64,000 bases of DNA from Crossaster papposus (lineage: Eukaryota; Echinodermata; Asteroidea; Velatida; Solasteridae), in contig JBAIAA010000022.1 of assembly GCA_037893245.1 (NCBI GenBank), positions 806,001-870,000 of the forward strand, written 5' to 3'. The notes beneath the pieces are model-generated. The model was not told the DNA's origin, made no database searches, and saw only the letters and a list, made by a program, of their open reading frames with translations. A program made the position numbers and the translations under genes. Each line of letters begins with the position of its first letter. Within the stretch, counting starts at the first letter, position 1. Of this stretch, positions 3,111 to 39,475 are shown piece by piece.

Positions 3111-4320
3111 TTCCATACACATACGTATGGAACCTCTCGCAGCCGAAGACTACTGCGAGTAGTTCGCGCTCGATGTTGGCATAGCGTTGCTCCGTTTCGC
3201 TGAGCGACTTGGACGCAAACGCGATCGGTTTACTGTCCTGGAGTAGTGCTGCCCCAAGTCCACGGGAGGATGCATCCACCTGTATGACTGTGTCTTTGCT
3301 TGGATCGAAGAACGCCAGGGTCGTTTCTTCGCAGACAAGGACTTTCACCCTGTCATATGCTTGTTGGTGGGATGCAGACCATGTGAATTCTGCATCTTTC
3401 TTGAGCAGCATGCGGAGGTTGGCAGTATGGTCAGAGAGCCGTGGAATGAATGGGCTCAGGTACGTGACCATCCCGATAAATTCCTGTAGTTCCGTTTTGT
3501 TTTGCGGAGGTTCCAGGCTTTTGATGTCATTGACTTTGCCTGGGTCAAGGCGCACTCCATGCTGGTCATAGACCATGCCAAAAAACATGATCTGGGAGGT
3601 TTTGACAGCGCGTTTCTGGCTGTTGAACATGAGTCCGTTTTTGGCTGCAACATTCATCAGATTGTGCAGGTGGCGATCATGTTCTTGTTCAGTTTTGCCG
3701 AAAACGGTCAGCAATACCGATGGTACCAGGGCAGCTATCGAGGATCTGATCCATTTTGTGTTGGAAGATGTCCTGGCTTACGACTAGTCCGAATGGCATT
3801 CTGTTGTAGCAGTGCCGTCCAAATGGACTATTGAATGTGGTGAGGATTGAACTTTCCTTATCCAGTTTGACAGACCAATAACCATTTTTGGCATCGAGCT
3901 TACTGAAGTATTTGGCTCCAGCTAACTTGTGCGTGATATCTTCAACGGTAAGCGTTTTGTGATGACTGCGCTTGATTTCAGCATTCAAGTCCATGGGGTC
4001 AAGGCAGATGCGAGGTTTTCCATTGGCTCGTCGCGACACTGTCAAACTGCTTACCCAGTCAGTGGGTTATGTCACTTTGCGTATGACACCCTGCTTCTCC
4101 ATGCTATCGATTTCGGTTTTCAATTCATCTCGGATGTGGATTGAGCATTTGCGAGGTGCATGAATCTTGGGCATGGCATTATCCCTAAGCACAATGTGGT
4201 AAGTTCTAGGGAAGTTTCCAATCTTGTCGAATTGTTCTGGATATTGTGCTGCAAGGTCGTCGACAGATACAATTGGTGCAGATGACTGCTTGTTTATCTT
4301 GCAGTGTAGTGTGATGAGCT
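3111..4320 (-). pseudogene. pol: gypsy pol core, complete duplicate: RT, connection, part of RNase H
   Basis: This is the longer copy of the internal duplication. RT motifs are clear: KPRICLDPMDLN, FSKLDAKNGYWSVKLD, FNSPFGRHCYNRMPFGL. At the catalytic acidic box near 3712 the frame breaks: one frame ends after GIAD and the next resumes with TVFGKTEQEHD, so the second catalytic Asp is lost. Downstream are the connection region and RNase H (VIQVDASSRGLGAALLQ, AFASKSLSETEQRYANIERE). A TAA stop precedes the RT core. The same lesions are in the shorter copy. Confidence 0.88.
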
Positions 4321-4771
4321 TGAGGTCACGGGAACTCCCAAGTCCAATAATTGCAGGACCTTCAGAGTCCACGATGTAGAACTCTGTTACAAACCATTCG
4401 CCCTCGTTGTATCTACATGGAAGCGTAATGGAACCATGCTGGGGAATCCTAGTTCCATTGTAAGCTGTGAGGGTCGTGTTTAAGTTGTTAACACAGTCTT
4501 TCTTTGGGAGACCTTCGGCATCCAGTTTTGTAGGGTACATGCGCCTGAACATTCGCACAGGAAGGGTATTGCCCTGTGCTCCTGTGTCCACCTTTGCTCG
4601 AATGTTCACTAAGGTGGAGTCGCGTTTCACTTGCACATATGTGATAACCTCGTTGCGAGTGTCAGTCTGGCTGATGACACTTATGTTTGACACGCGTATG
4701 GAGTGTAATGTCAGGTTATCAAATTGTTCATCCAGTTGATTTTGTTCATCTGGCTGCTCGATGGTGTGCAC
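4321..4771 (-). pseudogene. gypsy aspartic protease region
   Basis: The frame opening at 4771 carries VDTGAQGNTLP with the catalytic Asp near 4588, followed by FYIVDSEGPAIIGLG, the second hallmark (IIGLG) of retropepsins. In the family this enzyme cleaves the gag-pol polyprotein. The frame runs on into the amino end of reverse transcriptase and stops at a TAA near 4067, which falls inside the pol region and would truncate it. Confidence 0.85.
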
Positions 4772-4834
4772 ACTCTTTTGTTGCGGTCTAGCTGTGCGCG
4801 ATCTTGATCTGAGCTGACCGCGTTGTCCTTTTCT

Positions 4835-5601
4835 TCAGCGAGATTGCGAGCGCGATCGGTTGTCGTGACTGGGGCGCTCTGTGTCAGAGTATCGACAAAC
4901 TTGTTCCCAGTGGTTTGGCTTTTTGCATTTCCGGCATGTGGATTTGTATCCCGGGCAGTTCTCCCTGCGCCTGAAAGAGTGATGACCTCCACAGTTGCGA
5001 CATGTGTTGGATTTGCGGACCTCATGCACAGGGACATCCGTACCCTGTACGCGTGTAAGTTCCTTCATATGGGTGACAGATGCCTCATATGTGCGGCCTT
5101 GTTCAATCGCTTGGTCAAGCGTGAGGGTCTTTGGTTTACTCAGGAGCGTTTTTTCTGCAGCTCATGGTGACATGTTCCTGCGATGAGCTGGTCAACAATC
5201 CTGTCTTTCAACTCATGGTCATCTCTGAAGTCGCATTTGTAAGCCTGGAGCTTTAGTCGGGATATGAAATCATCAATGCCCTCTTTCTCTTTCTGTGTGA
5301 ATTTCTGGAGAAAGAGTCTAGAGACACGGAAGTTCTGCTTTGGTTTGATCTGCAGTTCAAATTGTTCCCAGACTTTTGCAGAATTGTTCTGTTCCTCTGA
5401 TTCTAAGCCCCAGGAGTTATACAACTTGAGTCCTTGGGTGCCCATGAAAAGAAGAATGTGGTCCACTTGGCGACCAACCTCAACGTTCTTTATTGCAAAG
5501 TACATGTCATACTGTTGCTTGAACAGCTTGATAGCATTTGCCTGGTCTGGGTTAGACTTGGTGCCAAGTCGGTAAGCGGTCCACTCGGTACGTATATACA
5601 C
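4835..5601 (-). pseudogene. gag: gypsy gag (capsid and zinc knuckle), frameshifted
   Basis: The first open part (5601-5140) reads as a retrotransposon capsid: it contains EQFELQIKPKQNF, then FLQKFTQKEKEGIDDFISRL, and ends after LIAGTCHHELQKK. A frameshift at a run of A/T bases near 5155 breaks it. The next part (5068-4835) has a CxxC...H...C knuckle (CRNCGGHHSF) and a second CRKCKKPNHW, which bind nucleic acid in gag proteins. Its frame also ends early and the following spacer reads in another frame. The normal gag start is not visible. Confidence 0.85.
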
Positions 5602-5658
5602 GGGAGAGGTTGTGGTTGCCTCGTTCCCAATTTCGAAGTTAAATTACCGACTTGGACA

Positions 5659-6393: not shown

Positions 6394-7650
6394 TTAGTTT
6401 GCACTAAGAACTGAAGCTGCAAAGGTCGAATCTTCTGTTCGTTTGTTGTAGAACCTTGCAAAAGTACTGGCATTAGTCCAGTCTGCAGTATGAAGTATAT
6501 CTTGAAGTGATACACCCTGAGCTAAAGCAGTTGAAGTCGATGCACTTCTGAAACTATGAGCAGTATAGACATTTGTGTCTATCCCGGCTGCACGGAGTAT
6601 ACTTTTCATCCATCTTGCCAATGTACCAGTTGTCACACCTTTATGTGGTTTTCTAGTGGAAATAAATAGTTTAGTGACAGAATTTCTTATTTTTTCTGTT
6701 CTGCCAAGGTAATCTTTCAAGGTTGAAAAAACGCATAACTTATGGTTTCCCTGAAAGGTTGGCAGAGTTAATTTATTATTAGAGATACCTTTCTTAGGAC
6801 AGTTAGTTTTAAGTAATTCCATAACTGTAATATAACAACAATTATCTGAAAAGTCAAAATATCGTATGTCTAGAGCCGCAAGCGTCTGAGTTCGCTGTGC
6901 GGTTACGAGAGCCAACAGGCTAACCAATTTTTCGCTAAGGATGAGTTGCAAAAGATCTTTATTATCAGGTAAACTTGAAATGTGATTTAATAAAGTAGAT
7001 ACTTTCCACATTTTTGAATATCTTGGTTTTGGTGGTGTGGAATTAAAAATCCCTTTTAGTAGGCGAACAATGAGAGGGTGTTGCCCAACAGGATGACCTC
7101 CTGTTAAAGGCAGAGTCATTGACAATGCTGACCTGTACAAATTCAAGGTCGAGTAAGACTTTCCTTCTGAATGTTCGTGAGCCAGAAAATTAGTAATATC
7201 TAAAACAAATGACGCAAATGGATCAATTTTCCTTCCACTGCACCAGCTAACCCAACATTTCCAGGCAGACTCGTACTGCTTGTCTGTGCCCTGTCTCCAG
7301 GATCTTGAGATGAGCTTGGAAGCGTCACTCGAAAGACCCTCTGCTTTCCATCGTTGCCTGAGATGGTCCAAGCGGCTAATCTTAGATTCAGAGGTTGAAA
7401 TTGCTGAGGTTGGTTGAGAGCAGTCTGTGGCAGTTGGATTGGTCGTGCTACACACATGGCGAGTAGCTGAGGAAACCAGGCTTGGGTTGGCTACAAGGGG
7501 GCGATTACTAGACATAAGTCTGTCCTGTCTCTGGAAATCTTGTCCAGGATTCTGGGTAGCAAACAAAATGGAGGGACAATATATGGAGATAAATTCCCCC
7601 ATGAAATTGTAAACGCATCTACAGCCCAAGCATATGGATCTTTTTTCCAT
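6394..7650 (-). CDS. DIRS tyrosine recombinase
   Basis: A 418-codon open frame. It has an amino-terminal SAM-like region (ISRSWRQGTDKQYESAWKCW, SYSTLNLYRSALS) and a catalytic domain with the Arg I box LVTAQRTQTLAALDI, the HxxR box YTAHSFRSAST and the final box HTADWTNASTFARFYNK with the presumed Tyr nucleophile. In DIRS elements this enzyme integrates the circular DNA copy without target-site duplications. The domain reads open, but the element as a whole is dead. The true start is uncertain, because the first ~60 residues overlap the preceding RNase H linker in another frame. Confidence 0.88.
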   Translation of the reverse strand: MEKRSICLGCRCVYNFMGEFISIYCPSILFATQNPGQDFQRQDRLMSSNRPLVANPSLVSSATRHVCSTTNPTATDCSQPTSAISTSESKISRLDHLRQRWKAEGLSSDASKLISRSWRQGTDKQYESAWKCWVSWCSGRKIDPFASFVLDITNFLAHEHSEGKSYSTLNLYRSALSMTLPLTGGHPVGQHPLIVRLLKGIFNSTPPKPRYSKMWKVSTLLNHISSLPDNKDLLQLILSEKLVSLLALVTAQRTQTLAALDIRYFDFSDNCCYITVMELLKTNCPKKGISNNKLTLPTFQGNHKLCVFSTLKDYLGRTEKIRNSVTKLFISTRKPHKGVTTGTLARWMKSILRAAGIDTNVYTAHSFRSASTSTALAQGVSLQDILHTADWTNASTFARFYNKRTEDSTFAASVLSAN

Positions 7651-8099
7651 GAAACATACTGATTCAATTTTCGATTTTCACAAGATGCGAAAAGGTCAAC
7701 GTCTGGGCAGAAGGTATGCTTGACAATATGACCAAAGACTACAAACTTGATACTTATTTCTTTGTTCAGCTCTTTACGAGAAAGAAGATCGGCCGTGACA
7801 TTGGTTATTCCGGCAATGTGAGTTGCAGATAAGTGAATATTCTTTTGCAAACACCACTTAAAAATTGTGGTCGAAATCTGGTTTAAGGAAACCACAGATC
7901 CCCCCCATTTTGGAGATATATGATACATTAATATGAAGCTTTTATGGATGTCTTTCCACTTACCCTGTGTATAAGAATTGTCTGTATGACAGACTGCTCC
8001 CCATCCCAGTTTACTGGCATCTGTGGAGATGACAATATCGATGGAAGGTAATTTTATATTACAATATGCTCTATCAGAGGAAACCGTATTTTCATCCCA
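7491..8099 (-). pseudogene. DIRS RNase H and following linker
   Basis: Minus-strand reading gives the RNase H start (VISTDASKLGWGAVCHTDNS), then HIAGITNVTADLLSRKE near its end, then FCPDVDLFASCENRKLNQYVSW, a segment that regularly follows RNase H in DIRS polyproteins. The frame runs from the LINE junction to about 7491. The start codon lies upstream of the LINE, so this part would be cut off from its reverse transcriptase. Confidence 0.8.
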
Positions 8100-9650
8100 G
8101 CTATGGTTTCCATTATAAATTCATCTTTGACGACTGGCAGTTTTCCTTCAGCTCTTAAGGATGCTATTGTTACACCACTTTTGAAAAAGCCTACGCTTGA
8201 TCACGACACTCTCAAGAACTATAGACCTGTGTCTAACACTGCCTTTCTGTCTAAAGTAATCGAAAAAGCTGCTCTTCGTCATGTTTCCAAGCATTTGGAG
8301 GATAATAATCTGCATCAGCCATTCCAGTCAGCATACAAGTCCAATAACAGCACTGAGACGGCCTTGTTGAGAGTCAAGAGTGATATAATGCACGCTCTTG
8401 ATAATCGGCAGGCTGTTCTCTTGGTGTTGTTGGATTTGTCTGCTGCCTTTGATACAATTGATCATTCTATACTTTTAAACAGAATGTCAAATATATTTGG
8501 TATTACTGGAAGTGTTCGCGACTGGTTTCATTCGTACCTTACTGGCCGGACTTGCAAAGTAAAAATCGCGAATGAATACTCGGAGCCTCAACCACTTGAT
8601 TTTGGCTTGCCACAGGGCTCTGTCATCGGTCCACAGTCCTTTTCATTCTATACGCATCCACTCGCCGACATCATTAAGCGCCATACCAATGTCAAATTTC
8701 ATTTCTACGCCGACGACACCCAGGTGTATATTACCTGTGATCCTAGATACCCAAATGATGTGAAACATGCTTTGTCGACATTGACCACTTGTATTCTTGA
8801 AATCAAAACATGGATGACGCATAATATGCTGCAATTAAATGACACTAAAACTGAATTCTTTGTTGCCGTCACTCCAATATTATCACATACGTTGCAGGAC
8901 ATCTCTCTCAAGATTGGTAATATTGTCATCAGGCCATCCACCTCCGTCAGAAATCTTGGTGTGGAATTTAACCAAAATATGAACATGTCCACCCATGTGA
9001 CTTCGATTTGTCGTTCACTAAACTTCCATATCCGCAATTTATCTCAAATTAGAATGTTTATTGATCAGACTACTTGCCATCACTCCGTTCATGCTCTTGT
9101 TACATCGCGTTTGGATTATGCTAACTCTCTCCTTCATGGTATAGATGTTTCTGATATCAAACGTCTTTAGCGTCTCCAAAATCGTGCAGCCAAACTTGTT
9201 TTCCAGGCTAAAAAGTATGATCTTGCGTCGCCATTTCTCAAACAACTCCATTGGTTGCCTGTCCACTCGCGTATTGTGTTTAAGATTTTAACTGTTGTAT
9301 ACAAATGTTTCACCAACCAGGCACCAACGTATCTTTCAGACCTCATCATTCCCTATCAATCGAAGAAATCCGGACTTCGCTCAGGCGATGATGATAGACT
9401 AGTTACGGTACCTAAAACCAACACTCTGTCTGGTGACAAGGGTTTTTACGCTGCTGGTCCTAAGCTATGGAATAACTTGCCTCAGCGCATCCGTCACGCC
9501 ACATCATTAACAAAGTTCAAGAAAGATCTTAAGACTTTTCTATTTTAATTGGTTTAGTTTTTGTTCCTTGTATTTTGTTAAGCGCTCTGATACCAGTTTC
9601 TTCTGTGTTTGAGCGCTATATAAATGCTCACATTATTATTATTATTATTA
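8100..9650 (+). mobile_element. 5'-truncated LINE inserted in the DIRS element
   Basis: The plus-strand frame 8103-9170 has non-LTR RT motifs: KNYRPVSNTAFLSKVIEKAA, LLDLSAAFDTIDH, GLPQGSVIGP and the intact catalytic box FYADDTQVY. After a TAG at 9168-9170 the same frame resumes and ends with RHATSLTKFKKDLKTFLF near 9548. The 3' end has gcgctatataaatgctcac followed by an (ATT)n tail, as in CR1/L2-like LINEs. The endonuclease is missing, so it is a typical 5'-truncated insertion. I could not see clear target-site duplications. Confidence 0.88.
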
Positions 9651-30663: not shown

Positions 30664-31568
30664 TACTGCGATTTGATTGATTGTCAGCGCACTTTGCGAA
30701 AGTTCGCTAGAGTTAAGTTGAACACGATCAAGCACAGCCAATGGCACACGCACTTCACTGAACTTTTGTACACACAAAACTGTCTCAAACTAGGCTACAA
30801 CTTTACCTAAAACACAGATTTCAACCACAGCCGAAGTCCACACACAACCTACATGTTCTACAGTATGAATATGGCTGCAAAACATCATTGACTGAATTAT
30901 CGATTTCAGGGGCTATGTTACAGCAACAAATAATATAAATTTAGGACAAAAGTGAGATTACGTCTGGACGAGATAACGCCTGTTTTTAGGCGAACAGTAT
31001 ATATGTTCACGTATGTGCGTGTACATGTCAATACCGCAAATGGAGGGCTTTAATGTAAGTACACACTCACATACTGAGGACACCTTGCAAACCGAGCGCG
31101 TCCTCGGTATGAAATATTGTGAAAATTGCACTTTCGTGGCCGTTTTTGACTGTTGGTTAAATATCAAAGCGTTTGGGAGGAGTCCTCGGTTGACGCATAA
31201 GACCTGACGTGAGGCAGTATGCACATTTTTTTCCCCGTCAAAAAAAACGCAAACGGGATTACTCTGAATGGCATAGCGCCCTCCGTTGGTTGCGCGTGTG
31301 AAAATGACGTAAATGTAAACATGTATGTACAATTACATGTGTACATACATGACAACATACTCGTTTAGACATGTCTTAACTATTATAACGTTGTTTTGGC
31401 CTAAGTGCATATTGTAGTTTATGCGAAGACGTGGTCATTTGCAGCTAGCTAGGTGTACCATGGAGCTGGAATAAATGGTAAGTAGAGATATTGTATTTGG
31501 AAGCTTGCATGTTACTCGCTATGTATGACTATGAGTATGACTGAGTATGAATGTAGCAGAGTATGACA
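30664..31568. other. Non-coding stretch
   Basis: No gene recognised. A small inverted repeat, catgtatgtac ... gtacatacatg, lies at about 31320-31352. Confidence 0.5.
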
Positions 31569-31570
31569 TA

Positions 31571-32138
31571 CCCGTCATCTGGGGTGACTTTGATAGTTTT
31601 TGGCACTTCTGATATCTTTTGAGTAGGATAAATGGGGTTTTCACCCTTGATTCTTTCAACTAATAACAATGTGCCTCTTGGCTATCAATAGACCAAATCA
31701 TTTCTTCATCAGATTGTGTTTTCATATTTTTTTTAAAACCACAACAAAATATCAAAGTCACCCCGTTGTCGGGGTGACATTGATAACCAATGAATAAAGC
31801 CTATGTTATCAAATTAACCCTCTTATTGGGGTGACTTTGATAATTTTAATTCGTTTTAAAAAAACACAAGCTACAAAACTATTCAAACAATACAAATATT
31901 TGGGTTTTCTGATAACTTTAATGGTTTGATAGCCCCTCGACCCAGCCTTCCGTTTATAGACCCGTGGCATGATTGTTACGGTACATCAGAGCTCAATCAG
32001 TATCTGCGAAGACAGAAAAGACAAATACTATCATAAAAACACAACTACACAGAGTTTTGGACACTTTGTTGTTCAATTTTGACATTCGGGGTGATTTATC
32101 AAAGTCACACTGAGTATCAAAGTCACCCCAGATGACGG
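31571..32138. mobile_element. MITE with TA flanks and internal copies of its end sequence
   Basis: The ends read CCCGTCATCTGGGGTGACTT and, inverted, nearly the same, with TA on both sides (31569-31570; 32139-32140). The end motif ggggtgactttgata recurs inside in both orientations, near 31745-31795, 31835 and 32090. The TA flank suggests mobilisation by a Tc1/mariner-like transposase. No coding sequence. Confidence 0.85.
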
Positions 32139-32395
32139 TATATGACGTGCTCATTTACGTTGTAATGTAATTTTTAGTTAAATGGCCTCGATCTCTTACT
32201 CTAGTCTATAGGATGATATGGGAAGTGAATATGCCTAATTTCAGAATAATATAGAAGTTATAACCAAATTTAACTGCTTTATTTTGCCAACGCAAGCATG
32301 AGTTGTTGAGCACCGTGCGAACAAGAAATAGTTAATTGTAGTTATTGTATAAATAATAAAACAAATAAGTAGCCACAATTATTAATATTTAATTG

Positions 32396-32788
32396 TATAA
32401 GCCAATTTGGTATTCCAACTGCACATGCGCACATTTTCCCTTGACGATTTTTCTTTCGATATAAACATTTCATCGATTGCGTGCAAAAGCATAGCGGGGT
32501 ACCAGCAAATTTCAAGAGATCGTCGTGTTTTAAAGTTACTAAGTAACATATTTTTGTTTACGTTTTGGTGTTTTCAGCCGCTTTGTGTGGCCAAACTTTT
32601 GTTCGAACAAATATTATTTATTTTTTTCGATTTCACAAGAAAATGTAAAAAATGCGGATTTGGTTACCGCGTCCCCCATAGCCTTGTGTGCATTTGTCTG
32701 CCGTGTTTGTATCACTTGACCTCCTTGAGAAAAATTGTTGAATCTTGTTGTGCACATGCGCAGTCGGAACTCCAAAGTGGCTTATTAT
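32396..32788. mobile_element. MITE directly upstream of the Tudor/recombinase-like gene
   Basis: Imperfect terminal inverted repeats of about 35 bp: ataagccaatttggtattcc on the left and its near-complement (ggaactccaaagtggcttat) on the right. Each arm carries a tgcacatgcgcac-type word. The open frame at 32407-32796 lies wholly inside the element, is hydrophobic and unsupported, and I do not call it a gene. Confidence 0.7.
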
Positions 32789-32859
32789 CAGTTTAATGGT
32801 ATATTGTTGTTGTATTGTTGTGTAGTCTAGGTGTGGCTGACAGAACTACCATAACAAAC
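32735..32859 (+). promoter_or_regulatory. Candidate promoter / 5' UTR with NRF1-like word
   Basis: The right arm of the MITE holds gtgcacatgcgcag about 100 bp before the ATG at 32860. It is close to the NRF1 site consensus (GCGCATGCGC), which in animals often marks TATA-less promoters. No TATA box is visible. The role is inferred from the word and its position. Confidence 0.35.
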
Positions 32860-34369
32860 ATGAAACGAAGTAGTCGTCTTGATGGAACCTTGACAAATCA
32901 CCAGCATCATGAAGGGGAGAACGTAATCGCACTGTGGCCTCCAGATTCATCATGGTATCCTGCCGTAATAATCTCCTTCACCAAAGGTAAGTGCGGAGCC
33001 TCTAAAGGACATATGACGAAAACAAATGGAATGCCCTCGTAATTTGTGGGTTCACGTTAACGTGAACCCACATTAGGGTTGTGGGTTCCGTAGGTAAGAA
33101 ATGTAATCCATAATGTAGAATCCCATTTGTTACACATAAATTAAGACAGCTGTATACCCTCTTACATCCCCCCATGACATGTACCACATGTAAATAAACA
33201 ATGCCATTTTTCCTAAACTTGATTCCTCCCCCCCCCCCCCCTTTCAGAACCAAAAATATATATGATCTGTAAACAACAAATACTTTTCAACATTCCACTC
33301 CCAATTGCATGTAATCTCTTTAAAGTTTAATTAGTTGAATTTGTGGCTTTCTTATCAGGAAAGTACTGCGTCCGATACACTGATGGTGTGACACGCTGCC
33401 TATTTGAGCACCAGGTGAGAAAATTACCATAGAATGCATTAATTAAAAACAGACAGGTTAGGAAGAATACCAATGAAATGCGTAATTCTTCCAAATAGGC
33501 ACTTGGGGAGACAAACTAGCGTAATTTTTTAGGTAATAAGGAGACAGTGGCACTTAGGGAGACATTTTAGTGTCTCCCTAAGTGCCTTAGAAGTCTTAGA
33601 AGTCATATAATGAATGCACATGACACAAATTCTCATTTGAATTACATATCTTTTTATGAAGAGGATAAATACCGGTATGTCGTCAGTTAAGTTGCACATC
33701 AAGGGCGAATGTTGTTGCTTGTGATGGTGTTAAAATAGATAGTATATTTTATAGATAACACAAAGAAATTGTTATTTGTTTAAAATTAAATGTGATTTTG
33801 ATTTGATTTCTATGCCAGGTGGCCCATCCGAGTTTCTTGAATCCGCACTTAAATGGTTCAGACAGTCTACAAAGCAGTTCCATTTGGGATGATGGCCCAC
33901 AGGCTGATTCTGGTACAGAACCTGCCGTTTGTACTGCTCCATATGAGGTAATTCACACACACTCAACTTGTTTTCAGAACCCAAATATTCACTCTGGGTG
34001 CCCAGAAGCCAGAAACAAATTTATAAATCAAGTGTTTTTTTTGCAAGCACCCCCCCCCCTTTCACCCCCCCCCCCCCCCCACCCCACACCCCACCCCTCC
34101 CACCCCTACTCCCAACTCCCTCTCCTTCAGAGGGGCAACTAGTCCGAGGCAATTAGGCATATGCGTCTACCCCGAAAGAAAATAACAGTGGTGTTTTGGG
34201 TTTTTTCCACTCGTTCTAAATCATAAACGTTTTCTGCATCCGGCAACATAGAAAGTAGTAAGATTTTGATTCATTAGTGAACTTGTTTTCTGAACCCTAT
34301 CAAATATTCACTGTGGGTGCCCAGAAGCCAGAAACAAATTTGTAAATAAAGTGTTTTTGGCAAGCACCA

Positions 34370-34403
<34 letters not shown>

Positions 34404-37400
34404 ACACACCCACCCCTCCCCCACACACCCACCCCTCCCCTCGCCCTCCCACCCCTCCCCAAAGAAATTGTTATTTGTTTAAAATTAAATGTGATTTTGA
34501 TTTGATTTCTATGCCAGGTGGCCCATCCGAGTTTCTTGAATCCGCACTTAAATGGTTCAGACAGTCTACAAAGCAGTTCCATTTGGGATGATGGCCCACA
34601 GGCTGATTCTGGTACAGAACCTGCCGTTTGTACTGCTCCATATGAGGTAATTCACACACACTCAACTTGTTTTCAGAACCCAAATATTCACTCTGGGTGC
34701 CCAGAAGCCAGAAACAAATTTATAAATCGAGTGTTTTTTTTGCAAGCACCCCCCCCCCCTTTCACCCCCCCCCCCCCCCCACCCCACACCCCACCCCTCC
34801 CACCCCTACTCCCAACTCCCTCTCCTTCAGAGGGGCAACTAGTCCGAGGCAATTAGGCATATGCGTCTACCCCGAAAGAAAATAACAGTGGTGTTTTGGG
34901 TTTTTTCCACTCGTTCTAAATCATAAACGTTTTCTGCATCCGGCAACATAGAAAGTAGTAAGATTTTGATTCATTAGTGAACTTGTTTTCTGAACCCTAT
35001 CAAATATTCACTGTGGGTGCCCAGAAGCCAGAAACAAATTTGTAAATAAAGTGTTTTTGGCAAGCACCATCCCCCCCCTTCCCCCCCCCCCCCCCCCCCC
35101 CCCCCCCACACACCCACCCCTCCCCCACACACCCACCCCCCCCCTCGCCCTCCCACCCCTCCCCAAAGAAATTGTTATTTGTTTAAAATTAAATGTGATT
35201 TTGATTTGATTTCTATGCCAGGTGGCCCATCCGAGTTTCTTGAATCCGCACTTGAATGGTTCAGACAGTCTACAAAGCAGTTCCATTTGGGATGATGGCC
35301 CACAGGCTGATTCTGGTAGAGGACCTGCCGTTTGTACTGCTCCATATGAGGTAATTCACACACACTCAACTTGTTTTCAGAACCCAAATATTCACTCTGG
35401 GTGCCCAGAAGCCAGAAACAAATTTATAAATCAAGTGTTTTTTTTGCAAGCACCCCCCCCCCTTTCACCCCCCCCCCCCACCCCACCCCACACCACACCC
35501 CACACCCCACCCCTCCCACCCCTACTCCCAACTCCCTCTCCTTTAGAGGGTCAACTAGTCCGAGGCAATTAGGCATATGCGTCTACCCCGAAAGAAAATA
35601 ACAGTGGTGTTTTGGTTTTTTTCCACTCGTTCTAAATCATAAACGTTTTCTGCATCCGGCAACATAGAAAGTAGTAAGATTTTGATTCATTAGTGAACTT
35701 GTTTTCTGAACCCTATCAAATATTCACTGTGGGTGCCCAGAAGCCAGAAACAAATTTGTAAATAAAGTGTTTTTGGCAAGCACCATCCCCTTCACCCCCC
35801 CCCCCCCCCCCCCCCCCCCCCCACACACACCCACCCCTCCCCCACACACCCACCCCTCCCCTCGCCCTCCCACCCCTCCCCAAAGAAATTGTTATTTGTT
35901 TAAAATTAAATGTGATTTTGATTTGATTTCTATGCCAGGTGGCCCATCCGAGTTTCTTGAATCCGCACTTAAATGGTTCAGACAGTCTACAAAGCAGTTC
36001 CATTTGGGATGATGGCCCACAGGCTGATTCTGGTAGAGGACCTGCCGTTTGTACTGCTCCATATGAAGCCTCAAGTGCCGAGTCACAGAGATCATCAACC
36101 GAGGCTACTGAGACCGGTCACATAACGGTCATGGAGACCAGCAATGAAAGTGGGCACAGGAAATGGGACAAGAAACACTTTTGCTTTTTCTGTGAAGTAC
36201 CTCAATCTAAGTTGCCCCGTCATCTCCAGTCATGTCACAAAGAAGAGAGCGAAGTTGTAGAGATTGCGTCTGAGACCAACCCAAGTGCCCGTAAGATACT
36301 TCTGTGGAAAATCCGCAATGTTGGTAATCATAGGCACAATTGCCAAGTCCTTCGGAAAGGCCGGGGTGCACTTATTGTAGGATATAGGCCTAATCATAAG
36401 GTATCTCCACATGCATACGGACCGTGCATATATTGTTATGGCTATTATGTGCGAAGTGATCTCTGGCGTCACCAGTGCCCACTGAAACCTGCACTCCCTG
36501 CACACTCGCATGGTAGCACTACCACAACTCCTCTGCGTAGATGTGTTGCTCACAAGAGTGATTTGTTAAAGCCTCCACCTGTCGGTGTGTCTTTCCAGTT
36601 GAACCAGGTTCTTATTCCGATGAAGAGAGATGAGGTGACTCTGCTGGCCAAGAATGACACTTTGATTGTGGAAGTAGCCAAGCGGGAATACGCGAAACTC
36701 GGGCACGATGTAGATCAACATGGCTACATCCGAAACAAGATACGGGAATTGGGTCGTCTTGTCATACAACTCCGCAAGAATACACACCAACCAAATGCAT
36801 CACTTGAATTATTTGTCCACCCCCACTACCTGAATGATATCATCAAGGCTATTCACGGTATTGCTGGCTTTAATGAAGACAAGCAGTTGTATGATGTTCC
36901 GTCTCTAGCTTTAAAGATTGGACATTCCATCAAGAAGTGTGCACTCATACTTAAAGGAAATGCTCTAGAGTCTGGCCAAAAGCAAAAAGCCCAACACGCT
37001 GAAGAATTTCTGCAGTTGTGCGAACTGACCTGGCGAGACCGTGTATCCACCCATGCACACAGAACACTGTACCAAGGAAAGCGCAACCAACCTCAAATTC
37101 TGCCGACAAATGCTGATGTTGTGAAAATGTCGGCGTTCCTCCATGAAGCTGGCAACAGAGAAGTGGAACTTGTCCAGGATGCTCGGGGCGAACAAATTGG
37201 ACCAGCTTGGAAGAGATTGAATGAAGTCGCACTGTGCCACCTTATTATGTTCAACCGCAGAAGGCAAGGGGAGGTATCAAAAATGAAACTAGAAGACTTT
37301 CAGAAGCACACAACAGCTAGTGTGAACGGGGAATGCCTGCTGACTGATCTTGAACGGCATCTGTGCAAGATGTTCAGAGTTGTCGAAATAGTTGGCAAGA

Positions 37401-38947
37401 GGGGTCGAACTGTTCCTGTGCTTCTCAGCAATGAGGTGGTGGCGTGGTTGAGTGCTCTGATTGCGAAGAGAAATGAAGCTGGAGTCGCCCACGACAACAC
37501 CTACTTGTTTGCACGATGTTCTTATGGAGGTACAGGTCATATAAGAGGATGTGACTGTATAAGATTGTACGCAGACATGGCGGGCCTTGACAATGCTGCC
37601 AGCATCCGGTCTACAAAACTTCGTAAGCACGTGGCAACCGCATCGCAAATTCTTGCCTTGAAGGAACATCAACTTGAAACACTTGCAAACTTCATGGGTC
37701 ATGATTTGCGTGTCCATCGTGAATACTACCAGTTGCCAGATACTGTGCAGAGGGTCACCAAACTTTCTAGACTTTTTCTCAGCTTGGAGAGGGGAAACTT
37801 GCCTTCCCAGCAGGGCAAATCCCTGGATGAACTGCATGTCACTGGTGGTAAGGACACAGTTGTTTTAAATTATTTACTCAACAGCAAAAGAAAGACATTA
37901 ATTATTGCTTTTGTTGAAAAATATTTGATCAGTAATTACTATTCACTAATACATCTTCAACAGCGAAAGAAATGCAAGAAATAACATTTTGTTATCAGTT
38001 CACAATATATGATAACAAATGGTATACGTGTTTGTGTGCATTTCTTTTGCTATTGCTCCTGCATTACAGAACAAGAAAGAGAAATAGAGAAAAATTAGAA
38101 AGAAACAGACCACAGAAATTTGACAAGAGTTGAGTCCACTTTTCTGAATTTACATGCAGGACAACAACCAACTGTCGGGTATGTGTGCATTAATCTAACA
38201 AAAACTGCTCTTTGTGACTTGCAGAAGGCTTCACTAGTGACGAGGACAGCGATAACAGCAGTGACAATTCCTGTGATGTGCCCAGTGAAAACAGTAAGTT
38301 TAGGCTTTTATGTGTCTGTATTTTAACCAGTTCGCGCCGGATGACGTATATAAACGCAAAAATTTTCCAAAATTCAAAACGAATGACGCATAAACCTGCC
38401 AAGTTCAAGTTCGGAAATGTATGTCAGCAGCGCGCAAGGCCGGAAATGCGTGGGTGTGCTTCCCGGCACTATCAGCCTGAACCCGCTTCAGATCGAGTTT
38501 CGTAAAAAATAATCCCGCCCGTGGGCTTGGCGATGTTAAAATAATCCCGGCGCAAACTGGTTAAGTCGGGCTGTCTTTAAAAAAACAATTGTCTGTCTGT
38601 CCATTTGTTTGTTCATCTGGCTATCGGGCTGTCTGAATTAAAAGTGCCTAAATATCTGTGTTTGATATCGACTTGTTTCCTATTTGACATTAGGTACTCG
38701 ACAGGCTCCTATCAGTGTTCCATCTGGAAGTCTGGCATCTCTGAACAACTCGAGACGAGTGAAACGTCGTCCCTGGACTGCCGAGGAGAAGGGAGACGTT
38801 ACGAAGGGTTTGCAGAAATTCTTTCTGCTGAAGAAGCTTCCTGGCAAACGAGACATCGAAACATCCTGTCTTGTGGCACTGCAGACACGAAGCTGGAGGA
38901 ACATCAAAGACTTTTGTCGGAACAAAATGAAGCTTCATCAAAGCTAA
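32860..38947 (+). CDS. Tudor-like / zinc-finger / tyrosine-recombinase-like / SANT protein with a multiplied exon
   Basis: Exons: 32860-32986, 33359-33414, an optional 129-nt exon (33819, 34518, 35222), 35939-37847, 38225-38293, 38694-38947. All borders are GT/AG and the joined frame is open: 804 residues without, 933 with, all optional copies. A Tudor-like fold is suggested by ENVIALWPPDSSWYPAVIISF. Two fingers follow (CFFCEVPQSKLPRHLQSCH; CIYCYGYYVRSDLWRHQC). A recombinase-like part has RRRQGEVSKMKLED, TKLRKHVAT and FMGHDLRVHREYYQLP: Arg ~502, Arg ~623, His ~649 and Tyr ~657/658, with Thr where the first His of HxxR is usual. The last exon has a SANT/Myb-like region (RRPWTAEEKGDVTKGL ... 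RSWRNIKDFC). It resembles large uncharacterised families in fish and lancelets. A chromatin role or transposon origin is inference. Confidence 0.8.
33045..33072. repeat. 28-bp perfect palindrome in intron 1
   Basis: The half TGTGGGTTCACGTT is followed directly by its complement with no spacer. A further gtgggttcc lies 10 bp to the right. Possible cruciform or regulatory site. Confidence 0.9.
33549..33586. repeat. 16-bp-arm hairpin in intron 2
   Basis: Arms ggcacttagggagaca and tgtctccctaagtgcc are exact complements around a 6-base loop. A related ggcacttggggagaca lies about 50 bp upstream. Confidence 0.9.
33765..35938 (+). repeat. Tandem ~700-bp duplication carrying three copies of one exon
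   Basis: The block including aagaaattgttatttgttta, the acceptor tatgccag, the exon and a C-rich tract recurs at offsets of 699, 704 and 717 bp. Exon copies are 33819-33947, 34518-34646 and 35222-35350, each 129 nt and phase 0-0, each with its own donor (gag|gtaatt). Copy 4 (from 35939) has lost or never had the donor and reads straight on. Copies 1 and 2 encode the same peptide, and copies 3 and 4 share a TE-to-RG change. Within each unit a segment ending ...gggtgcccagaagcc occurs twice. Confidence 0.95.
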
Positions 38948-39059
38948 GCAGGGTGTTTCGTCAGTTCACATACATGTACGGATGCGTCAGAGTACTTGAC
39001 TATTTAGAATTTGCAATCGCAATGATGACTTTAGAATGCACATCAATATGAAACCAATG

Positions 39060-39475
39060 GACAACCAGCAATTTAGTGTAGTGTCCTCACTTTGATAGGT
39101 GTAATTCACACACACTCAAGTGTCCTCCATTGGATAGAATGACAAGTATGCCCTCAGTGTGGTAGTGTCTACATGTATGCGTGTACATGTACACACACAC
39201 GTACCACCACACGTGAAGATCGAGTTCGCGGGCGCACATACGCCTGCATAGGGCGGCCAAACGTCAGGTTCTGTTGGCTCCGCAGCCGTTGTTGGACTTG
39301 GATGGACTCCGTGTAAATTCGTCACACTTACGCCGCCGCTCCGCTATTCTTGACAGTTTCCGCTACAGTACATATTGCCCTATTATGAGATACATGAGTT
39401 CAAAAACATGGGGGGGACATTTGATATTGTGTCCCCCACCCTTCAAAATATGGGGGGGGGGACGTGTCCCCCTGT

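Follow-up and report, generated by a model that had tools for sequence, protein, structure and literature searches.

A probable tyrosine recombinase transposon with chromatin-protein-like parts in Crossaster papposus, and its Rep-bearing neighbour element

Transposons of eukaryotes that depend on a tyrosine recombinase (YR) are poorly understood. The present analysis concerns a 64,000-nucleotide stretch of the genome of the sea star Crossaster papposus (assembly GCA_037893245.1, contig JBAIAA010000022.1, positions 806,001 to 870,000 of the forward strand; further called the window), in which an intact multi-exon gene with a recombinase-like region had been predicted from the letters alone. This gene lies inside an 8,162-bp element, designated A, which occurs in many nearly identical copies and often stands in tandem with a second element, B, with Rep-like frames. 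The probability is roughly four in five that A represents a DNA transposon with recent activity and that the product of its sole recognised gene is a multi-domain tyrosine recombinase.

Animal Cryptons are reported to lack terminal repeats and a C-terminal domain (PMC3212892, section 8). CryptonA and CryptonI are similar to A in that a YR-type gene supplies their only enzyme, that long terminal repeats and a clear target duplication are absent, and that movement is modelled through circles (PMC3212892). In contrast to them, the gene of A is spliced and includes Tudor-like, zinc-finger-like and SANT-like parts, its ends are resolved as inverted arms around a core, Thr stands in place of the first catalytic His, and the element has a Rep-bearing neighbour and forms tandem arrays. 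Provided that its protein is a YR, A is a DNA transposon with a YR as its sole enzyme, while its conserved SANT-like C-terminal exon does not agree with the absence of a C-terminal domain. The original prediction had called the gene Crypton-like: this remains apt for the presumed working principle but not for membership, since the C-terminal domain and the resolved arms depart from those descriptions. A may work like a Crypton but is not filed as one here.

The DUF3504 genes (ZMYM2/3/4, QRICH1, KCTD1, KIAA1958 and WOC) are described as conserved domesticated genes in which, as in A, a YR-derived region is joined to regulatory domains (PMC3212892, abstract). The DUF3504 model was not listed for the A protein up to E = 10, although most weak matches in this range are discarded by the HMMER filters. 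In contrast to those genes, A is a high-copy element. The use of a YR is also common to A and the DIRS/Ngaro retrotransposons (PMC3212892, section 3). A reverse transcriptase was not recognised in A, there being no such model among the Pfam matches of its gene and no other long frame seen by eye. Among prokaryotes, integrative plasmids, integrative and conjugative elements and the coupling sequences of Tn916 are examples of an economy of YR plus Rep, with tandem accretion at attachment (att) sites and a host-derived core at one end. The A-B pair resembles them in these respects, except that its YR-like and Rep-like genes are split over separate elements and that its host is a eukaryote with a 1.02-Gb genome. 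Among the papers listed by literature searches, none was recognised as reporting such a pairing of YR and Rep elements from animals; the searches did not extend to Repbase, which may hold related entries.

Extent, copies and target sites of element A

The element and its ends were delimited in the window as follows:
31022..39183, + strand: element A, the entire mobile unit of 8,162 bp (homology stops, terminal motif, paired ends, tandem junction)
31016..31021, + strand: left core TGCGTG in host DNA (left flank)
31022..31030, + strand: 5' terminal arm TACATGTCA, in inverted orientation to the 3' arm (terminal motifs, typed ends)
39168..39177, + strand: 3' terminal arm TCTACATGTA (terminal motifs, typed ends)
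39178..39183, + strand: right core TGCGTG, element-derived (ATGCGTG at 24 of 30 distinct right ends)
39184..39194, + strand: right half-site of the host, TACATGTACAC, similar to the 5' arm of A itself (right-flank comparison)

The protein search of the species' own assembly (1,023,315,904 bases in 1,841 contigs) found at least 74 copies, approximately 100% identical, spread over many contigs and free of internal stops (74 of 1,192 candidates scored); the frame of the main exon was open in all 74, with a length of 685 aa in most of them. The catalytic segment (98 aa) was identical in 145 of the 150 copies scored out of 683 candidates, some of these lying within shortened frames. Exact matches in the genome numbered 394 for a 16-mer of the 5' end and 221 for a 21-mer of the 3' end, against zero for the reversed-pattern controls.

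Thirty copies were fetched, including that of the window (L001). The homology to the window ended at positions 39183-39193 in 25 of the 29 others, the exceptions being L003, where it stopped with the contig, and L022, L026 and L030, which broke off earlier. Counting the window copy, the 3' terminal motif was readable at 27 of the 30 loci, and the 5' end was observed at 30 loci. At L025 the 3' end of A ran directly into the sequence at 31022, forming a head-to-tail copy, and this junction together with the 30 loci fixed the 5' end. Across the 3.1 kb at the 3' end, identity to the window copy was 99.6% or more in 26 of the 28 other copies, two of which had no mismatch (2,349-3,114 bases compared per copy, gaps ignored; L014 dropped after its anchor failed), the copies being best hits and, hence, biased toward young ones. 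Polymorphism by codon position among the young copies was not used as evidence of selection, these copies having been chosen as best protein matches. Many of the copies L031-L060 had the same 5' end, but their 5' non-coding region had diverged and was shorter; at least one of these, at C7:1414375, retained the identical catalytic segment, and recombination between subfamilies is possible.

Tandem junctions and joined ends read ctACATGTA-TGCGTG-TACATGTca, i.e., inverted arms flanking a 6-bp core, which is the layout of YR sites with their inverted arms and cores of 6-8 bp. Typical YR arms are given as 11-13 bp (PMC3212892, section 3), and those of A do not reach this length. Once flanks that were themselves A, B or B' (the partner of a second lineage, see below) had been left out, the comparison covered 36 distinct flanks on the left and 27 on the right. 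The last base of the left flank was G in 36/36 and the last two TG in 31/36, so that the bases common to both ends amount to 1-2 bp and up to 6 bp; the pattern expected of a Crypton would be short direct repeats at the termini and no terminal inverted repeats. The left core was within one mismatch of TGCGTG in 12/36, compared to 0.5% of the 6-mers of the window, and the right half-site within one mismatch of TACATGT in 6/27, compared to 0.27% of its 7-mers, while the right end bore A's own ATGCGTG in 22 of the 27 without A or B neighbours. A host-like left core combined with an element-derived right core is what YR strand exchange would be expected to leave if it were staggered across a core with mismatches.

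Twenty-one copies (the window copy and 20 more) were typed at both ends, with the neighbours judged by eye from the first 45 bases: 11 adjoined neither A nor B, four had B on the left, five had B on the right and one had the start of B' on the right. Satellite DNA was present on both sides of five of the 21, and a further two had it on the left and B on the right. The satellite pattern matched 31,974 times genome-wide (for example, at C9:617528-775348), and since no more than 12 bases may separate the two sides of the pattern, every match represents an empty site. In the five satellite insertions, A was preceded by ...TTGCCG in four cases and by TTGCGTG in one and was followed by CA, while the commonest listed empty forms were TTGCCGCA or TTGCCTCA. 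Since these empty forms match the flanks of the insertions, there is no duplication beyond the ambiguous core: of the copies with flanking target duplications for which a search had been suggested, the copies were found, and the duplications beyond the core were not. Judged from these flanks, the insertion of A is precise and leaves no target duplication other than the core. By eye, window positions 39184-39260 resembled the left flank of L077 in inverse orientation, indicating that A lands in other dispersed repeats as well.

The gene of element A and its predicted protein

No long conserved frame other than the multi-domain gene was recognised by eye in 31022-39183. The gene has the following parts:
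32860..32986, + strand: exon 1, starting with ATG and ending at a GT donor; the Tudor-like part begins (Pfam Agenet/Tudor_3 under cut-off)
33359..33414, + strand: exon 2, remainder of the Tudor-like part (AG/GT borders, matching phase)
33761..35880, + strand: exon-3 region of three tandem units of ~700 bp, each with one symmetrical 129-nt exon 3 and two copies of the repeat shared by A and B
33819-33947, 34518-34646 and 35222-35350, + strand: extra exon-3 copies of 129 nt each
35939..37847, + strand: main exon with a fourth exon-3 copy, a paired zinc-finger-like part, a helical region and the recombinase-like catalytic region
38225..38293, + strand: exon 5, acidic linker; its acceptor and donor sequences match those of locus L113 (by eye)
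38694..38947, + strand: exon 6, with the stop codon and the SANT/Myb-like C-terminal part (64% identity to L113 over 59 aa, no Pfam match)

Predicted splicing joins five exons with GT/AG borders throughout into 2,415 nt, that is, 804 aa plus a stop, exon 3 being counted once. There are four exon-3 copies, three separate in tandem and the fourth fused to the main exon, and each extra copy, if used, would lengthen the protein in frame by 43 aa. The number of exon-3 copies varies among the copies of A because the shared repeats and exon 3 occupy the same tandem units; the distance from the gene to the 5' end was between 3,040 and 7,122 bp, with most steps close to 700 bp (31 pairs, two with one common 5' end), and the protein length may vary accordingly among A copies in 43-aa steps.

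A second lineage, A', was found at L113, in an array on contig C792, with an intact gene 73.2% identical to that of A at the protein level over 560 codons. The nonsynonymous and synonymous distances (dN and dS) between the two were 0.177 and 1.40 by NG86 and 0.179 and 1.24 by YN00, giving a dN/dS of about 0.13. A' keeps the large exon, the 64%-identical SANT-like exon and the corresponding borders of the last introns (borders judged by eye), while the Tudor-like exon was not found in lineage 2, L113 probably being without the element start. The 3' end of A' reads CACATGTATGCATG, and the sequence after it was also found after the young A copies L008, L021 and L074, so the same kind of end and neighbour recurs.

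The candidate catalytic residues were located as follows:
37262..37264, + strand: candidate Arg I, the R of RQGEV, invariant in two lineages
37397..37399, + strand: candidate catalytic Lys in VGKRGR, placed by hhalign on VIGK of XerD
37613..37624, + strand: TKLR, with Thr for the His of HxxR and Arg II kept, invariant in two lineages
37700..37702, + strand: His of the GH motif, invariant in two lineages
37724..37729, + strand: Tyr pair, invariant, the second Tyr (37727-37729) being the candidate nucleophile, nine residues past the His (spacing by eye)

All members of the catalytic set R-(K)-H-R-(H/W)-Y except the first His were present and invariant between A and A'; the role of Arg I is presumed for the R of RQGEV on the basis of the motif. 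The Phage_integrase model (PF00589) matched the whole A protein with E = 0.0013 (19 bits, cut-off 27.1 bits), the recombinase region of A' also with E = 0.0013, under the cut-off, and the isolated catalytic part of A with E = 0.0058. In hhalign comparisons with a profile of A and A' as the query, XerD scored 32.8, higher than all 150 column shuffles used as controls (maximum 28.6), with the Lys of VGKRGR paired with the Lys of VIGKGN. The isolated Tudor-like segment matched Agenet with E = 4e-5 and Tudor_3 with E = 8e-5, both under the Pfam cut-off; the zinc-finger-like and SANT-like parts had no significant Pfam match and were called by eye and by conservation. The collections of viral and genome contigs (prokaryotic and viral) contained no relatives usable for a deeper alignment, the phage and plasmid protein collections gave only a single match with E = 0.05 covering 19% of the query, and there was nothing useful in the PDB by sequence, no match in NCBIfam and nothing clear in PHROGs.

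The six exon classes, clean splice sites and 804 codons without a stop stated in the original prediction are borne out by the GT/AG borders and by a 73%-identical lineage that keeps borders, although the high-copy 8.16-kb element around this intact gene had been overlooked. The Arg box, R box, GH, paired Tyr and Thr-for-His replacement were also found by eye where they had been placed and are invariant in A and A', and the paired zinc-finger-like part was seen again by eye, with no significant Pfam match. The Tudor-like part is supported at levels below the Pfam cut-offs (best Agenet, E = 4e-5), and the SANT-like part stands as a conserved C-terminal region (64% over 59 aa) but not as a Pfam domain. 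The recombinase reading gained support from the Phage_integrase match, the XerD score and the YR-style ends and targets, falling short of proof. The assignment of the A protein to the YRs is, therefore, supported, not proven, by the motifs, the weak profiles and, foremost, the anatomy of the DNA.

Element B, the shared repeat and tandem arrays

Element B (5,268 bp, starting with TACATGTAGGTG and ending with GGGTGCGTG) was found between A copies of contig C97. It has two frames on the opposite strand, one matching REP_ORF2-G2P (E = 0.013) and the other the Parvo_NS1 helicase (E = 0.0048), both under cut-off, and HYH, YVMK and GPANCGKT, candidates for the HUH, Tyr and SF3 Walker motifs, were seen by eye. 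HYH, YVMK and the SF3-like helicase frame resemble features of the HUH initiators of CRESS-DNA viruses and parvoviruses, in contrast to which a capsid-like frame was not recognised by eye in B and the Parvo_NS1 match is weak. Helitrons combine a Rep with a fused Pif1-like SF1 helicase; Pif1 was not among the nine models listed for the helicase frame of B, of which Parvo_NS1 was the best.

The 5' end of B had 52 exact matches in the genome: 33 directly after A (13 listed A 3' ends with gap 0, plus 20 placed by a distance to the A gene of 1,387 or 1,396 bp), nine after another B and ten untyped. Exact A-A junctions numbered only four genome-wide. Scoring of 150 of the 341 candidates for the B helicase produced 54 rows at 99-100% identity and 40 at 71-75%. 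The remainder were 35 open frames at 54-58%, 13 frames at 58% interrupted by stops, and eight others. An A- or A'-type YR was present within 16 kb, on the opposite strand, at no less than 46 of the 54 and 27 of the 40 Reps of the first two lineages, and, among the YR matches listed, near 0/35, 0/13 and 1/8 of the other groups.

A and B also share a repeat of roughly 270-290 bp, present in the same orientation in six copies in the window A and in three in B. Its 26-mer core had 1,239 matches, and 97 of the first 100 listed were inside A or B on the same strand, so that, among these 100, the repeat is largely specific to the two elements; as a guess, it might be the recognition region of the Rep. 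Regular A-B arrays were present on C1253, with a uniform period of 13,374-13,378 bp, and on C355; some arrays, C355 among them, are mixed, and B-B tandems exist as well. The array on C792 had periods of 12,064 bp (three times), 5,560-5,562 bp (four times) and 15,283 bp (once).

A division of labour between A and B, in which the YR moves circles and the Rep amplifies them, is tentatively proposed, at slightly less than even odds. The recombinase would excise A as a circle through the TGCGTG site and integrate this circle, or a larger one, at sites resembling the joined ends, with the Tudor-like and SANT-like parts steering it to chromatin; the Rep-like HUH/helicase of B would replicate A+B or B circles by rolling circle, and insertion of the resulting concatemers would produce head-to-tail arrays. 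Put more strictly, and held equally tentatively, A and B might form a split, obligately cooperating transposon, with A supplying a chromatin-aware YR and B an HUH/SF3 initiator that rolls A+B circles via the shared repeats before concatemer insertion. A true partnership would be a new integrate-and-replicate mode among animal transposons and would explain the origin of large uniform tandem arrays of elements; a true split pair would be an animal counterpart of the prokaryotic integrative replicons, with two elements that have stayed associated in two or more diverged lineages. With its young identical copies, clear ends, target motif, empty satellite sites and probable replication partner, the family makes YR transposition in an animal directly testable.

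Competing explanations and other recombinases

A number of observations weigh against a YR transposon with a Rep partner. Both elements are known from assembled sequence, from which the circle and its excision are inferred. The first catalytic His is a Thr, and the similarity to known YRs stays under the Pfam cut-off. In hhalign, Cre scored 24.1 (shuffle maximum 21.4), yet out of catalytic register. No match was obtained with lambda Int, with another YR of the window or with an alignment of four YRs; three unrelated E. coli proteins compared alongside these scored 9.4-14.5. Two AlphaFold2 models, each from a two-sequence alignment, had pLDDT values of 39.2 and 40.4, unusable as fold evidence; the second placed the candidate Lys between two strands, as in YRs, to which no weight was given at such confidence. 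The right flanks departed from TACATGT at two or more positions in 21/27, and the target motif is, therefore, a loose preference and not a strict site. The right end of B has no obvious inverted arm, and the uniformity of the arrays could be explained by unequal crossing-over. Finally, the third Rep lineage (54-58%) had no A-type YR nearby among the YRs listed (0/35), and locus L112 (C863:319000-327500), comprising 8.5 kb of an 11.7-kb lineage-3 tandem unit, contained a piggyBac-like frame of 503 aa (by eye) and a Rep fragment; a YR was not found in this 8.5 kb, nor in 2.5 kb of L114. The partnership with A thus belongs to two Rep lineages and not to all of them. With the piggyBac-like frame in the unit, a lineage-3 Rep might possibly go with a DDE transposase instead of a YR.

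The strongest competitor to the proposed partnership, plausible but somewhat less likely, is that A and B are unrelated elements with a common target motif, B preferring the ends of A, and that the arrays arose by unequal crossing-over, which is the main rival explanation for them. The armless right end of B, the 11 of 21 typed A copies with neither element beside them and the lineage-3 Reps without A-type YRs would all fit this, but it leaves the position of 33 of the 52 B 5' ends directly after A to be accounted for, together with the recurrence of the arrangement in the second lineage (L113), a shared repeat nearly limited to A and B in the 100 matches listed, and the occurrence of only four A-A junctions where A ends far outnumber B ends. 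That A+B (13.4 kb) is a single composite element, of which solitary A copies are deletion or recombination products, is unlikely: the regular A-B arrays of C1253 and C355 would be expected from such a unit, but not the solitary copies with both ends in other DNA (11/21) or the B-B tandems.

Concerning the protein, another enzyme might move A in trans, the A product being no active recombinase but an accessory or DNA-binding factor. This is a still less likely possibility, for which the His-to-Thr change, the weak family match and the missing fold support speak, as do other YRs of the genome that could act (at least 142 PF00589 rows scored out of 840 candidates); on the other side, the protein is the sole long conserved frame recognised by eye in A, its R, K, R, H and Y positions are invariant between two lineages, and the 3' terminal motif occurs in A' in a distinct version. 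A domesticated host gene, i.e., a recombinase-derived chromatin regulator of the DUF3504 kind merely located in a repeated region, was rejected as highly improbable on copy number and defined ends: the multi-exon structure with Tudor-like, zinc-finger-like and SANT-like parts, the departed catalytic His and the purifying selection would suit it, but the same selection signal is expected for a transposase compared between lineages, and the dispersed, near-identical copies have fixed ends taking in the flanks of the gene. Of the two fates left open by the original prediction, domesticated or still mobile, the copies and ends accordingly speak against the former and fit the latter.

Apart from A, the window contains another YR frame at 6397-7677 (-), with 7494-8120 (-), of 427 aa and with a Phage_integrase match above the cut-off (E = 1.5e-10); it was unrelated to the A protein by BLASTP. 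An RNase-H-like stretch was seen by eye beside it, and it probably belongs to a DIRS-type retroelement. A reverse-transcriptase-like frame is located at 8052-9167 (+) and gag/protease-like frames at 4070-5643 (-), both called by eye. In the genome, the strongest Phage_integrase match (126 bits), together with three others, was on C8, a contig of more than 5 Mb which is perhaps a bacterial contig within the assembly. A further YR, within a frame of 1,017 aa, was present on five contigs (C111, C284, C430, C479 and C680), its C430 copy sitting inside an array of the lineage-3 Rep.

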